Source: Clostridiales bacterium (GTDB lineage: Bacteria > Bacillota > Clostridia > Peptostreptococcales > Anaerovoracaceae). Taken from it: a stretch of 64,000 bases of DNA. The notes beneath the pieces are model-generated. The model saw only the letters and a list, made by a program, of their open reading frames with translations, did not search any database and was not told the DNA's origin. The stretch lies in contig DUTT01000017.1 in the NCBI GenBank assembly GCA_012841925.1, positions 62,001-126,000 on the forward strand. The letters run 5' to 3'. Positions 31,258 to 50,452 of this stretch are shown here, piece by piece. Made by a program: the position numbers and the translations under genes. How positions within the stretch are numbered: the first letter of the stretch is position 1; each line of letters opens with the position of its first letter.

Positions 31258-31267
31258 ATACTCAAAA

Positions 31268-31331
31268 GACTAAAAGAGCGATACCGTAAAGACTAAAAGA
31301 GCGATACCGTCAAAATCGATATCGCTCTTTT
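31268..31331. terminator. Terminator between livF and the convergent selenoprotein gene, with a duplicated arm
   Basis: AAAAGAGCGATA (31295-31306) pairs with TATCGCTCTTTT (31320-31331) and is followed by Ts, giving a strong plus-strand terminator; on the minus strand the flanking A-run makes it work the other way too. A 20-base copy of the left arm region is present twice (31268-31287 and 31291-31310), so either copy could pair with the right arm. Confidence 0.85.
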
Positions 31332-31332
31332 T

Positions 31333-31449
31333 TTACTTTACGAAGAAATGTTTAACCAGATAGGCAATCCCGAATCCTGCTCCCAGCACGATATAAATCA
31401 GAAGTCAGGGAGGGCAGCTGCCTAAAAACGATTTTATTACCTCTTTCAT
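31333..31449 (-). CDS. Candidate small membrane selenoprotein with CPP-U motif (in-frame UGA)
   Basis: A minus-strand frame starts at ATG 31447-31449 behind AGGGGG (31455-31460) and ends at TAA 31333-31335. It is interrupted only by TGA at 31405-31407. Read as selenocysteine, it gives 38 residues: MKEVIKSFLGSCPP-U, then a membrane helix (LLIYIVLGAGFGIAYLV) and a short KHFFVK tail. The CPP-U motif resembles the CxxU/CxxC redox motif. Twenty bases after the UGA a 19-base stem-loop has a GGG loop, as expected of a bacterial SECIS. I do not know this family. The alternative is a pseudogene of a Cys/Trp codon form, but the frame after the UGA is open, ends neatly and encodes a clean helix. It follows purC by 71 bases. 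Confidence 0.65.
31374..31392 (-). promoter_or_regulatory. SECIS-like hairpin downstream of the in-frame UGA
   Basis: The minus-strand RNA AUCGUGCUGGGAGCAGGAU folds into an AUC/GAU and UGCU/AGCA stem with a single G-G mismatch and a GGG apical loop. The loop begins 21 bases after the UGA. Bacterial SECIS elements, the SelB-binding signals, are short stem-loops at this distance with at least one apical G. Confidence 0.6.
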
Positions 31450-31520
31450 GAAATCCCCCTCTCACATGTAAGGTGCGTTCGTATCGCACTCTACTCTGCA
31501 GTCGAAGCGCGGTCCAGGTC

Positions 31521-32207
31521 CTACCCCTGGAGAATCCGCTCCGCCAGTGCGAGCGGATCCACGGCTTTCTCCCCGTCGAATGCGCGCATGTTGCCGCCCG
31601 AGATTTCGTCGATCAGGCCGATGTGTCCATCCGCCCCCAGACGTCCGAATTCAAACTTGATATCGTAGAGCTCCAGGCCCTTTTCTTCGAGCTTTCCGGC
31701 CACGATATCGCCGATGTCGCGCGCCAGGCCGACCAGGATATCGTACTCGCCCCGGGTCATGATCCCGAGCAGCTCAAGCGCATCCGACGTGATGAGCGGG
31801 TCGCTTCTCCCGTCGTCCTTGAGCGTCACTTCCACATATCCGTCCAGGGGTGCTCCCTCTTCGACGTACATGCCGTACCGCCTGTAAAAGCTCCCCACCG
31901 CGCGATAGCGCACGATCACTTCCACGCCGTTTCCGAACACCTGCGCCGGCATCACCGTCATCGTTCCCCTGTCGATGTCCGCACTCAGGTAGTGCGTCGG
32001 TATGCCCGCCCGCGCAATCTCTTCAAAGAAAAACTTCGTCAGGCGCAAACCCGCCTGCCCGGCCCCCTGCATGGTCATGCCGACCGCATTGGCCCCCGGA
32101 TCGAACACGCCGTCCGCCCCCGTCACGTCGTCCTTAAACTGCAGCACAACGTTTCCTTCTGCATTGAGATACACATCTTTTGTTTTCCCGGTACGGATTT
32201 TTTGCAT
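31521..32207 (-). CDS. purC: Phosphoribosylaminoimidazole-succinocarboxamide synthase
   Basis: The 228-residue SAICAR synthetase shows IRTGKTKDVYL (nucleotide loop), LRLTKFFFEEIARAGIPTHYL, EVIVRYRAVGSFYRRYG, a TLKDDGRSDPLIT substrate region and LYDIKFEFGRLG. It joins aspartate to CAIR in purine synthesis. No other pur genes are adjacent. It has its own promoter. Confidence 0.95.
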   Translation of the reverse strand: MQKIRTGKTKDVYLNAEGNVVLQFKDDVTGADGVFDPGANAVGMTMQGAGQAGLRLTKFFFEEIARAGIPTHYLSADIDRGTMTVMPAQVFGNGVEVIVRYRAVGSFYRRYGMYVEEGAPLDGYVEVTLKDDGRSDPLITSDALELLGIMTRGEYDILVGLARDIGDIVAGKLEEKGLELYDIKFEFGRLGADGHIGLIDEISGGNMRAFDGEKAVDPLALAERILQG

Positions 32208-33440: not shown

Positions 33441-35375
33441 TTACAACTGCTGCGCGCCTGCAACGCGGTTCTTAAACCGCATGGCGCGAATCGAATTCAG
33501 TACGACGAGGACGGTCACGCCGACGTCTGCGAACACAGCCCCCCACATCGACGCCGCACCCATCGCTCCCAGAATCAAAAACAGACCTTTAACGATCAGG
33601 ACGAACCAAAGATTCTGCGTCACGATTTTTTGCGTATGCCTTGCAATCCGGACAGCAAGAGGCACTTTCGACACCTCGTCGGTCATGAGAACGACATCAG
33701 AAGCTTCGATAGCTGCATCCGATCCGAGACCGCCCATCGCAATGCCGATATCGGCGCGCGCAAGCACCGGAGCGTCGTTGATCCCGTCGCCGACGAACAC
33801 CGTCCGGCCCGCAGACGAATCTTCGGAAGCCATCGCTTCCATAAGCTCTACTTTTTCTTCGGGCAGCAACCCCGCATGCACTTCGTGAATCCCGAGCTCC
33901 GCGGCAACCCGCTGCGCAGCGGTCTGCGTGTCTCCGGTGAGCATCGCAATCCTCCGGATCCCGAGTTCCCTCAGCTCCCGGATCGCCCTTGACGCATCTT
34001 CTTTCAGAGCATCGGAGACATCGATCCGACCGGCAAACACCCGGTCGACTGCGACGTAAACCGATGTTCCGACAGAATTGGACACAGGCAGAACGACCTC
34101 GTTTGACCGCATCCATTTCTCGTTGCCGGCCAGAACTTCGCGCCCGTCCACGCGGACCCGAACACCGTGCCCGGCAATCTCCTCGTACGATTCCACCCGC
34201 TCGTGCTCGATTTCCTTTCCGTACCGGGCAATGACCGCCCGGCCCACCGGGTGGTTGGACTGACTTTCCGCATGCGCCGCATAGGCGAGGACGTCTTCGT
34301 CGCTCCAGCCGTCCGCTGCGGCAATCTGCGTTACGCGAAATACGCCCTGCGTCAGCGTACCGGTTTTATCGAACACGACCGCATCGACATTCGTAAGCGC
34401 CTCCAGATAGCTGCTCCCCTTGATGAGGATCCCCTGTCTCGAAGCGCCACCGATGCCTCCGAAAAAGCTGAGCGGTATGGAGATGACCAGTGCGCACGGG
34501 CACGAGATGACGAGCAGAACCAGCGCACGGTACACCCACTCAGACAGCACCGCGCCGGGCAACACGAGCGGGGGCACGAATGCGAGCAGCGCAGCGGCCA
34601 GCACAACCGCCGGCGTATACACGCGGGCGAACCTGGAGATGAACTGCTCCGCAGGCGCTTTTCGATTTGCTGCATGCTCCACGAGCTCTAAGATCTTAGA
34701 CACGGCCGAATGCTCATAATCCCGCTCGACCGCTACCGTCAGCGCACCGTTCATGTTGATAAATCCGCTCAGAACATCGCTGCCGGGTTCGAGCAGGCGC
34801 GGCACGGATTCGCCCGTGAGCGCCGACGTGTCCGCCATGGACGTTCCTTCGGTTACGTGACCGTCCAGCGGTATGCGTTCTCCGGGCTTGACGAGGATGG
34901 AGTCTCCGATGTGAACCTCCTGAGGTTCGACTTTCTGGACGCCTCCGTCGCGCAGCACGTTGGCGTATTCGGGCCGTATGGCCATCAGCGCACCGATGGA
35001 GCGCCTGGAACGGCCGACCGCCACACCCTGCAGCGTCTCGCCGACGAGATAAAACAACATAACCGCAACGCCTTCGGGATATTCTCCGATCAGGAACGCG
35101 CCGATGGTCGCTATGCTCATCAGAAAATATTCGTTAAACACATCGCGCCTGAGCGCCGCCTTAACCGCATGCCAGACGACACCGTGGCCCAATATGACGT
35201 AACTGCTCAAAAACACAGCCAGCCTCAGCGTGCCCTGCGGCTGTAAAATCAGCCCGGCCAGAAACAGAGCGCTCCCGGCGAGAAGCTGTGCGATTTGACC
35301 GCGGCTAATGCCTCCATCTCCGTGGTCATGGTGATGATCGTGGCCGTGATTGTGATCGTGGTCGTGATGTGCCAT
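33441..35375 (-). CDS. cadA: Heavy-metal P-type ATPase (Cd2+/Zn2+ exporter type)
   Basis: The 644-residue P1B-type ATPase starts with a His/Asp-rich metal-binding tail (about residues 3-20, repeats of HDH/HNH) instead of a CxxC domain. It has TGES, the membrane SCPCALVIS metal site, DKTGTLTQG phosphorylation site, a SNHPVGRAV nucleotide site and GDGINDAPVLARADIG. The CPC site and CadC-like partner point to export of Zn, Cd or Pb. It follows the ArsR-type repressor by 19 bases. Confidence 0.92.
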   Translation of the reverse strand: MAHHDHDHNHGHDHHHDHGDGGISRGQIAQLLAGSALFLAGLILQPQGTLRLAVFLSSYVILGHGVVWHAVKAALRRDVFNEYFLMSIATIGAFLIGEYPEGVAVMLFYLVGETLQGVAVGRSRRSIGALMAIRPEYANVLRDGGVQKVEPQEVHIGDSILVKPGERIPLDGHVTEGTSMADTSALTGESVPRLLEPGSDVLSGFINMNGALTVAVERDYEHSAVSKILELVEHAANRKAPAEQFISRFARVYTPAVVLAAALLAFVPPLVLPGAVLSEWVYRALVLLVISCPCALVISIPLSFFGGIGGASRQGILIKGSSYLEALTNVDAVVFDKTGTLTQGVFRVTQIAAADGWSDEDVLAYAAHAESQSNHPVGRAVIARYGKEIEHERVESYEEIAGHGVRVRVDGREVLAGNEKWMRSNEVVLPVSNSVGTSVYVAVDRVFAGRIDVSDALKEDASRAIRELRELGIRRIAMLTGDTQTAAQRVAAELGIHEVHAGLLPEEKVELMEAMASEDSSAGRTVFVGDGINDAPVLARADIGIAMGGLGSDAAIEASDVVLMTDEVSKVPLAVRIARHTQKIVTQNLWFVLIVKGLFLILGAMGAASMWGAVFADVGVTVLVVLNSIRAMRFKNRVAGAQQL

Positions 35376-35394
35376 GTCTTCCTCCCTGCTGACC

Positions 35395-35772
35395 CTATTC
35401 GTAACGATCCTCGAGGATGTGCTCCAGCGCCTGGTCGAAAACCTGTCGGACGTGCTCGTCTGCCAGCGAATAGAACACGGTTTTCCCCTCGCGCCGATTC
35501 GTGACCAGCTTTGCCTGCTTTAAGTGCCTCAGTTGATGCGATACCGCCGACTGCGTCATCCCGAGCAGCGCTGCGATATCGCATACGCACATCTCGGACT
35601 CGTCGAGCGCCCACAGAATCCGCACCCTGGTCGAATCGCCGAACACCTTGAACAGCTCGGCCAGGTCGTACAGCGTTTCGTCCGGCGGCATCAGCTCGCG
35701 CACCCGGTTGACCGTCTCTTCGTGTATGACTGTGTCGCCGCAGCGTTCCACAGCTTCCGGTTTTATCTGCAT
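35395..35772 (-). CDS. ArsR/SmtB-family metal-responsive repressor (CadC-like)
   Basis: The start is MQIKPEAVERCG behind AGGAGGAAG. The 125-residue winged-helix protein has the alpha-3 metal motif ESEMCVCDIAALLGMTQSAVSHQLRHLKQA, where the ELCVCD-like segment supplies Cys ligands, and a C-terminal helix with DEHVRQVFDQALEH that could form an alpha-5 site. It likely releases its operator on Zn, Cd or Pb binding and controls cadA. A 12-4-12 dyad covers the predicted transcription start upstream. Confidence 0.9.
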   Translation of the reverse strand: MQIKPEAVERCGDTVIHEETVNRVRELMPPDETLYDLAELFKVFGDSTRVRILWALDESEMCVCDIAALLGMTQSAVSHQLRHLKQAKLVTNRREGKTVFYSLADEHVRQVFDQALEHILEDRYE

Positions 35773-35802
35773 CACTTCCTCCTGGATTTCTCTAAAGTGA
35801 AT

Positions 35803-35830
35803 ATATGAACATATATTCATATGTTCATAT
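35803..35830. promoter_or_regulatory. Operator of the cadC-cadA operon
   Basis: ATATGAACATAT and ATATGTTCATAT are perfect 12-base arms separated by four bases. The core TGAA-N6-TTCA pattern is typical of SmtB/CadC operators. It covers the predicted transcription start (near 35826) just before the repressor gene. Confidence 0.75.
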
Positions 35831-48492: not shown

Positions 48493-49896
48493 CTAAAATC
48501 TGAAATATAAAAATGGATTGAACGATGAATCCACGAGGTAGGCCGTGACCGCCAGAAGCAAGACAATCGCGACGACGGGCTCAGCCAGCCCCAGCGTGCG
48601 CTGCCCGATCCGGCCTGTGCGCAGGCGTTCGGCGACATGCTTTGGCCAGGGCGTGCTTCCTATGGCCGCGAGCAAAAACGTTACTGCGTAGCTGCGCAGG
48701 TAATACAACGACACCGTATCGGTGAGCGGAATGCCGCCCGCTCCAGCCATCAGTCCGAGCCTTCGAACCGCTTCGGTCAGACTGGGCGCATCGAACAGCA
48801 CGAAGCTGACACCGACAATGATGAGCACGTAAGCGTGAGACAAAATCCCGGGCGCCGCCGCAAGCCGCTGGCCGATCCAAAACTTCTCAAGAACCAAAAA
48901 GACGGCAAACAGCAAGCCCCACAAAACAAAGTTCCAAGCCGCCCCGTGCCAGAGACCCGTCAGCATCCAGACTGCGAATATGTTGAACAACCAGCGACGG
49001 TTCGTCACCCGGTTGCCTCCGAGCGGTATGTAGAGGTAATCGCGAAACCACGAGCCGAGCGATATGTGCCACCGCCGCCAGAATTCCGTAATGCTTTTGG
49101 AGACAAGCGGGTAGTTGAAATTTTCCATGTAGTCAAAGCCCAGCATGCGCCCCAGGCCGATAGCCATATCGCTGTACCCGGAAAAGTCAAAGTAAATCTG
49201 CAGCGTAAAGGCTGCTGCATACATCCATGCAAACAGCACTGTTTCGTTCTGCGTCTCCCCAAACAGCGCGCTCAGCTCTCCGAGCGAGTTGGCGATGAGC
49301 ACCTTTTTCGAGAGGCCGATCATCAGACGGCCGAGGCCGAGACGCATCCGGCGGACGCTGTGCGTTCGGGATTCGAGTGCAGCCGCCACATCGGCGTAGC
49401 GCACGATCGGTCCTGCGATCAGCTGCGGGAACAGCGCAATGTACGTCGCCAGATTGACGAGACTCCTCTGCGCTTTAACATCCCCCCGATATACATCTAT
49501 GGTATAGCTGAGAATCTGAAATGTGTAGAAGCTGATGCCGATCGGCAGCGAAATGCGCAGCAGCGGTACGGAAAGCCCCGTGACTGCGTTGAAGTTGGCG
49601 ATAAAAAAATCCATGTATTTGAAATAGCCCAGCAGGCCGAGCGAAAAAGCGACGGAGGCGGCCAGCCAGGCCTTCGCCTGTGTTTCGTGACGGTGTTTTT
49701 CGATTATCAGCCCGAACGCATACTGAACCGCTACGGACAGCAGCATAATCGCTACGTACTTCGGCTCACCCCAGCCGTAAAACAACAGGGACGCAAAAAG
49801 AAGCACAAGGTTCTTGCGCTTCTTCGGCGTCAAAAAATAAACAGTCAATGTCACCGGCAGGAAGTAGTACAAAAATGTGATGCTCGAAAACAGCAT
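48493..49896 (-). CDS. MBOAT-family O-acyltransferase (AlgI-like)
   Basis: The start is the ATG of MLFSSITFLYYFLPVTLTVYFL behind AGGGGAAG. The 467-residue protein has about ten to twelve membrane helices, WRRWHISLGSWFRDYLYIPLGGNR and the catalytic His in LTGLWHGAAWNFVLWG, both characteristic of AlgI/DltB-like MBOAT proteins. It transfers acetyl groups for surface polysaccharide modification with the AlgJ-like gene, which starts 41 bases downstream. Confidence 0.93.
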   Translation of the reverse strand: MLFSSITFLYYFLPVTLTVYFLTPKKRKNLVLLFASLLFYGWGEPKYVAIMLLSVAVQYAFGLIIEKHRHETQAKAWLAASVAFSLGLLGYFKYMDFFIANFNAVTGLSVPLLRISLPIGISFYTFQILSYTIDVYRGDVKAQRSLVNLATYIALFPQLIAGPIVRYADVAAALESRTHSVRRMRLGLGRLMIGLSKKVLIANSLGELSALFGETQNETVLFAWMYAAAFTLQIYFDFSGYSDMAIGLGRMLGFDYMENFNYPLVSKSITEFWRRWHISLGSWFRDYLYIPLGGNRVTNRRWLFNIFAVWMLTGLWHGAAWNFVLWGLLFAVFLVLEKFWIGQRLAAAPGILSHAYVLIIVGVSFVLFDAPSLTEAVRRLGLMAGAGGIPLTDTVSLYYLRSYAVTFLLAAIGSTPWPKHVAERLRTGRIGQRTLGLAEPVVAIVLLLAVTAYLVDSSFNPFLYFRF

Positions 49897-49942
49897 GTAT
49901 CTTCCCCTATCGACCTGACCGCAAGGCAATCAGGCTCCTGCG

Positions 49943-50452
49943 CTACAGTGTGACGTCAGGTTCCCCGCCGAGCACCTGGATAAACGCATCCACCAGATCC
50001 TGAGACGTGACTGCATCGCTCAACTCCGACGAAACCATCGCGAGCATCACGATGTCGCCGCGCGCGACCACCTGCAGGTCATCCGCACCGACGCAGATCC
50101 ACTTCCACGGATCGATGCCTTCCTTCATGGCCTGAGCGATGTCTTTTGCCGCCGCGCCTTCGCTTGTGCGCACGAGCACCAGCGAGTACGCCTGCGATCC
50201 GATCATGGCCTCAGACACAGCGATTTCCGAAATATCGGAAGCTTCGCTCAGCCCCGTATACGCTTGAACGGCATCCGAATCCTCCAAATCGACTTCGATG
50301 TCTCCCACGGCAATGCCCGGATCTTTGATTTCGTACATCTTTTCGATGATTGAAGCGAGCGTCCCGTCGTACTCCCCGCCGCCTCCGCTCTGACATCCGC
50401 TCAAAGCGAGCAGCAGAACAAGCGCCAATGCAATTATGATATTTCTCTTCAT
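49943..50452 (-). CDS. DUF4358-type lipoprotein
   Basis: The start is the ATG behind GGAGGAAAAC (MKRNIIIALALVLLLALSGC); Cys20 is the lipid anchor. The 169-residue protein has a Gly linker and a domain with VLVRTSEGAAAKDIAQAMKEGIDPWKWICVGADDLQVVARGDIVMLAM that matches the DUF4358 pattern seen in Clostridia next to MBOAT/AlgJ genes. It is upstream of, and probably co-transcribed with, the acetylation pair. Function unknown. Confidence 0.82.
   Translation of the reverse strand: MKRNIIIALALVLLLALSGCQSGGGGEYDGTLASIIEKMYEIKDPGIAVGDIEVDLEDSDAVQAYTGLSEASDISEIAVSEAMIGSQAYSLVLVRTSEGAAAKDIAQAMKEGIDPWKWICVGADDLQVVARGDIVMLAMVSSELSDAVTSQDLVDAFIQVLGGEPDVTL

Follow-up and report, generated by a model that had tools for sequence, protein, structure and literature searches.

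A predicted 38-residue, one-helix membrane selenoprotein with a CPP-U motif and the same in-frame UGA in two species of one Clostridiales genus

The window analyzed here is the whole stretch of 64,000 nucleotides taken from a contig of a Clostridiales genome (G000, the source genome; 1.61 Mb, 89% complete). On its minus strand, positions 31333-31449 carry a predicted selenoprotein gene of 39 codons, that is, 38 residues from ATG and a TAA, and a homologue with the same TGA was found in a second species, G003. The translation reads MKEVIKSFLGSCPP-U-LLIYIVLGAGFGIAYLVKHFFVK-TAA. The in-frame UGA at codon 15 (31405-31407), predicted to encode selenocysteine (Sec), closes a CPP-U motif of the CxxU type (codons 12-15, 31405-31416). 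It is followed by hydrophobic codons 16-32 (31354-31404), which are predicted to form a single transmembrane helix by the Kyte-Doolittle scale and by AlphaFold2. The sequence AGGGGG at 31455-31460 ends 5 nt before the ATG and is a likely ribosome-binding site. The preliminary description of this DNA had reported the 39-codon minus-strand frame, the single TGA after GSCPP, the hydrophobic stretch, the TAA and the ribosome site; all of them were present on re-reading. Promoter scans around the gene found none.

Frames of this kind also arise by chance. Among 1715 TGAs in the window, 20 gave CxxU or UxxC readthrough frames when an ATG start, 10 codons before the TGA and 15 after it were required. 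By a simple test, a purine-rich site precedes the ATG in two of these 20, at 31333-31449 and at 48493-50016, both on the minus strand. What raises the first of them above chance is its relative with the same TGA.

A gap of 71 nt separates the gene from the purC-like gene upstream of it (31521-32207, minus strand). Further upstream on the same strand lie mutY, a Cd/Zn-type P-type ATPase and an ArsR/SmtB regulator; this heavy-metal ATPase with its preceding regulator occupies 33441-35820. The purC-like gene scored 81 bits against TIGR00081, for which the cut-off is 190. Right after the TAA, a hairpin with a U-run (31295-31332, minus strand; fold z -4.75) is a likely terminator shared with the convergent livF, and it was absent from the pattern-scan listing despite this z value. 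Immediately past the gene, at 31265-31310, two tandem copies of the 23-nt unit ACGGTATCGCTCTTTTAGTCTTT give the terminator-like hairpin its 3' arm in duplicate.

The homologue belongs to a Clostridiales MAG (G003) of the same genus and lies in a stretch deposited as JAAYDG010000055.1 (Clostridiales bacterium isolate AS06rmzACSIP_54). Its frame runs MKEILKSFLTHCPP-U-IMIYLLLGAGFGIYFLVKNFLLR-TAA, with the TGA at the same codon as in the window gene (L011:1543-1545). The match (G003:C4:5769-5879) had an E value of 5.9e-13 and 62-63% identity, with one TGA and no indel over 117 nt. GGAGG precedes its ATG. The residues of the CPP-U motif are identical in the two species, and both Pro codons differ. 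The preliminary description had proposed a homologue search and had warned of relatives with random stops and no conserved codons after the UGA. The one homologue found keeps the TGA at the same codon and has conserved codons after it.

In G003, the stop codon of a putative NPN-dependent ornithine cyclodeaminase gene (L029:4663-5772; NF052526, 597 bits) overlaps the selenoprotein ATG as ATGA. The genes upstream are this cyclodeaminase-like gene, a radical SAM gene with weak family matches only, a purC-like gene, mutY and an ilvD-like dehydratase gene. The purC-like gene and mutY upstream and livF downstream are common to both species, and two other genes separate the selenoprotein gene from livF in G003. 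After the gene, G003 has an unrelated hairpin at the same place. The shared neighbours mutY, purC-like gene and livF suggest neither a redox nor a metal role, and the gene context does not choose between the two. For the purC-like gene, G003 contains a copy 71% identical to that of the window (102 bits) and a 36% paralogue. In G001 and G002, the two other genomes of the genus, only a 36-37% paralogue was found, and no empty site was located. The match to livF in G003 (L029:7056-7934) is limited to its C-terminal half, and by eye this half directly adjoins a second C-terminal half, that of a different ABC ATPase encoded on the opposite strand. Because two ABC half-genes abut, the G003 contig may be chimeric about 1.7 kb past the selenoprotein gene.

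Comparison of the two DNA sequences suggests selection on the reading frame. Conservation is limited to the stretch from ATG to TAA: 30-base windows share 21-23 bases when they lie inside the frame and 2-10 when they lie entirely beyond it, and those straddling the ends share 14 at the start and 22 and 15 at the end. The ATG, TGA and TAA are all kept. The differences fall 12, 5 and 15 times on the first, second and third codon positions. Before the UGA, dN is 0.26 and dS 1.59 (dN/dS about 0.16), and after it, dN is 0.25 and dS 0.72 (dN/dS about 0.35); these ratios come from few sites, and dS is near saturation before the UGA. We also placed the same substitutions at random in neutral runs and scored them with BLOSUM62. 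For codons 2-38 without codon 15, the observed score was reached in none of 40000 runs in either direction, and for codons 2-14 alone in 3 of 40000. For codons 16-38 alone, with the frame kept open, it was reached in 127 of 40000 runs from the window to G003 and in 1218 of 40000 in reverse. By this score, the codons past the UGA change conservatively. The UGA frame retains 24 of 38 identical residues (UGA counted), compared with 18 of 38 in each other frame, and both other frames contain a stop in the window.

A hairpin that could direct Sec insertion follows the UGA. The predicted bSECIS element (31374-31392, minus strand) has a GGG apical loop at 31382-31384, which begins 20 nt past the UGA. 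The preliminary description had drawn a stem of 3+4 bp with a GGG loop 20 nt past the UGA, and the minimum-energy fold agrees: AUC/GAU and UGCU/AGCA, separated by a G.G mismatch, carry the GGG loop. The tip UGCU-GGG-AGCA and the 20-nt spacing are common to both mRNAs, so the upper stem and the loop are identical in G003. Under the tip, the G.G mismatch of the window is a C-G pair in G003; one pair of the lower stem changes from U-A to U-G, and the outermost pair is open in G003. No double-sided compensatory change was found in the hairpin between the two sequences.

The published bSECIS constraints are a loop of 3-9 nt, an upper stem of 4-16 bp, a G in the first two loop bases, a spacing of 16-37 nt and an MFE of -7.5 or lower. 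Both sequences satisfy them, with a loop of 3, a spacing of 20, an upper stem of 4 (window) and 7 (G003), and a 45-nt fold MFE of -10.6 (window) and -8.9 (G003); the window hairpin alone, 27 nt, gives -6.6. The bSECIS fit claimed earlier is thus confirmed, but the hairpin alone is weak evidence: 104 of 1000 randomly drawn window TGAs (10.4%) also pass with a 45-nt fold. Under a laxer perfect-stem rule, 1066 of 1713 window TGAs pass, and for the gene at 31333-31449 the rule selects a different hairpin, with 5 bp, a loop of 7 and a spacing of 23. Fold energies differ little from those of shuffled sequences and in G003 are sometimes worse, with z values of -0.4 to -1.9 for the window and +0.7 to -0.9 for G003. 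The residues encoded by the tip, Leu22, Gly23 and Ala24, keep their exact codons in 3 of 3 cases, while the other conserved Leu, Val, Ser, Pro and Gly residues do so in 1 of 8 (about 0.024, one-sided, calculated by hand on a split chosen after seeing the data). Codon keeping in the tip is a better sign than fold energy. In the same genome, grdB has a similar short hairpin, with a GGU loop at 18 nt. The Rfam model RF00031 gave no match, but as it also gave none in any control genome, this carries no information.

The source genome has the genes for reading such a codon. It encodes SelB (372 bits, above the cut-off) and SelA (573 bits), contains tRNA-Sec, and has in-frame UGAs in selD (SHSG-U-AAKIG), grdB (LTST-U-GTCTR) and grdA (CFV-U-TAAGAM); grdA was identified by PF04723, and selD and grdB by sequence, selD without a family search. 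The genes that the preliminary description had proposed to look for, selA, selB, selC and selD, are therefore all present, selB and selC included. Across the four genomes of the genus, selA matched in all four (above the cut-off in two; in G002 and G003 the gene runs off the end of its contig), selB was above the cut-off in all four and full-length in G003, and the best grdA match contained one TGA in all four, G003 included. tRNA-Sec was above the cut-off in three of the four. In G003 it was not found, the best match being an ordinary tRNA, and the selA contig of G003 ends on the side where its relatives carry selC.

These genes of the source genome are gathered in a compact selenium island (G000:C29:85001-105000, L028), where selA, tRNA-Sec, an aminotransferase-like gene (recognized by eye), selD and selB are accompanied by a glycine reductase cluster with the UGA-containing grdA and grdB. 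Two hairpins lie downstream of the UGA in selD (L028:12457-12504). The first has a CCGG loop on a GGCC/GGCC stem of 4 bp, and the second has a 9-bp stem with a GUU loop 33 nt past that UGA.

For the predicted protein with Cys in place of U, the best 19-residue Kyte-Doolittle mean is 2.14, for residues 14-32. AlphaFold2, given the two sequences with Cys for Sec, placed helices at residues 2-11 and 13-37 (mean pLDDT 79, pTM 0.38), so that Cys12 falls between the two helices and Sec15 in the opening turn of the longer one. Thiol-redox motifs are arranged in this way, with a Cys-x-x-Sec pair where a helix begins, and because of this resemblance we favor a redox relay at the membrane surface. In the part of PMC13188914 available to us, CxxU is likewise termed redox-related.

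Our main reading, to which we give a probability of roughly 0.8, is that this gene with a conserved UGA is decoded with Sec and yields a predicted one-pass membrane peptide that would act as a CPP-Sec thiol/selenol redox relay. SelB and tRNA-Sec would read the UGA by means of the hairpin 20 nt downstream. Residues 16-32 would then form the membrane helix and residues 2-11 a short helix. Cys12 and Sec15 may alternate between a selenenylsulfide and a reduced pair at the membrane surface, and electrons could pass between a cytoplasmic donor, for example thioredoxin, and a membrane partner or peroxide.

The main rival accepts the selenoprotein and differs in its function. It is possible that CPP-U is a site for soft metals (Hg, Cu, Cd, Zn) in a small metal-handling membrane peptide. 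In PMC13188914, as far as its table was accessible, the mercuric transport protein MerT appears among the predicted selenoproteins with C/SxxU, and Sec-containing metal transporters are listed as well; in the window, counting upstream along the strand of the gene, the third gene encodes the Cd/Zn-type ATPase and the fourth the ArsR/SmtB regulator. However, neither protein matched the MerT model (PF02411) up to E 10, and the ATPase and the regulator are missing among the five upstream genes in G003. We consider a metal site less likely than a redox relay, and on the whole unlikely.

Alternatively, the UGA could be a true stop that ends a 14-residue leader peptide, the conservation downstream being that of an RNA element. 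The conserved hairpin after the UGA agrees with this, as does the unremarkable number of identical residues in the post-UGA part (not significant; 2666 of 20000 neutral runs were as good). The conservative codon changes after the UGA seen in the neutral runs argue against it, and conservation stops at the TAA, where the next element is a terminator-like hairpin and not a regulated gene. A leader peptide is improbable in our estimate.

A pseudogene or a chance frame with a nonsense mutation might be suspected for a gene so short, in a window with 20 CxxU/UxxC readthrough frames, but G003, whose flanks do not align, has the same TGA, no indel and selection-like substitutions, which makes this very improbable. 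Equally hard to credit is that another frame is the real gene, for example the 45-aa GTG frame at 31352-31489 (minus strand), which is a listed ORF and is open across the compared stretch in G003, since it retains 18 identical residues of 38 against 24, is interrupted in the window, though not in G003, by a stop at position 32 of that stretch, and would have its least-changed codon position as the third.

We also assessed how widely the gene occurs. Among 148 related genomes, 18 matched at E <= 0.1, and G003 was the sole convincing match besides the source genome itself; the 16 others had E values of 0.017 or worse. Searches with a profile built from the two sequences matched 11 of 393 genomes of the order and 9 of 391 of the class (both at E <= 0.01) and 6 of 349 of the family (E <= 0.001), the three draws of genomes overlapping. 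Convincing matches were confined to G000 and, in the lists that include it, G003, with E values of about 1e-25 that are explained by both sequences having built the profile, and the rest stood at 2e-4 or worse. In the family profile search, the gene had no match in G001 (94% complete) and G002 (77% complete), both incomplete and both with selA and selB matches. A pattern scan of 84,980 species genomes, which allowed Sec or Cys at codon 15 and made CPP and the hydrophobic pattern obligatory, returned G003 and one chance match. No candidate was found among about 5.8 billion proteins in a search limited to 0.55 to 1.75 times the query length and to three shared 5-residue words. Plasmids gave no tblastn match, phages gave only 14 records at E 5-8, and a scan of viral contigs gave no match. 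As the query has only 38 residues, distant relatives were probably missed by all the searches used. The family is very narrow: two species were found.

The weak matches were rejected as relatives. Several are long frames, which we take to be AzlC-like; others are fragments of different frames, or contain a TAA, a TAG or more than one stop, and none has a TGA at the motif. The same applies to the minus-strand matches L013, L015, L018, L019, L020, L022 and L027. L035 (G255) carries SPPC at the motif, and its single TGA lies a long way downstream. The Xenorhabdus pattern match L048 reads TCPP*LLIYIFIGAS and is flanked on either side by more stops. Both were taken as chance.

A Cys homologue was not found in the genome, pattern and protein searches. 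According to the accessible part of PMC13188914, nearly all selenoproteins have Cys homologues. We somewhat favor the view that this is a lineage-specific micro-selenoprotein family, born in one genus, with an obligatory Sec and no Cys counterpart, whose 38-residue one-helix members with a CPP-Sec switch would be invisible to gene callers. As described in the sources we could consult in part, selenoprotein search strategies begin with Cys homologues, or apply a SECIS model and then examine the coding context. Given these starting points, a gene that is very short and has no Cys homologue can easily escape notice. If the view is correct, it would suggest that more short UGA-interrupted membrane peptides exist in Sec-using anaerobes. 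If the gene is real, it would add a membrane micropeptide to the 119 selenoprotein families or subfamilies of the 2026 inventory, as given in the portion of PMC13188914 available. It would also raise the question of which chemistry at the membrane surface needs selenium in 38 residues, and of the number of such genes.

Comparison with known families agrees with the earlier claim that no known selenoprotein family fits. Up to E 10, Pfam gave for either protein nothing but BNIP3 (E 0.22), and NCBIfam gave no family beyond chance level. Solved structures gave none except one at E 0.46. A weak likeness to photosystem I subunit IX (PDB E 0.46; NCBIfam E 0.017, with only one of the two proteins) was rejected, like BNIP3, as chance between short helices. 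Judged by names and motifs, Table 1 of PMC13188914, in the form available, contains no short one-helix CPP-U family. The accessible parts of PMC9312934, PMC12013277 and PMC1088965 describe no such protein, and neither did the literature on small membrane selenoproteins or CPPU, as far as it was covered. The peptide is most likely a genuine, Sec-only selenoprotein with one predicted helix, of a narrow family that would be new.

Four known systems come close in one respect or another. In MerT, a Cys pair precedes a helix rich in Leu and Gly; the protein is larger than this peptide and has several helices. Its predicted selenoprotein form (PF02411, unmatched here) has a comparable motif, C/SxxU. 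SelW-like proteins have a thioredoxin-like fold and no membrane helix. In the part of the literature covered, they are likewise short and carry CxxU (80 aa in C. jejuni), and the model PF10262 had no match here. GrdA also has CxxU, and a UGA-containing copy lies in the same genome, but its model (PF04723; no match here) spans 147 positions, compared with 38 residues. The GrdA protein is, moreover, soluble. The eukaryotic SelK and SelS combine a single membrane helix with Sec; they are larger, have Sec near the C-terminus and use a eukaryotic SECIS, and their relation to this peptide is one of analogy only.
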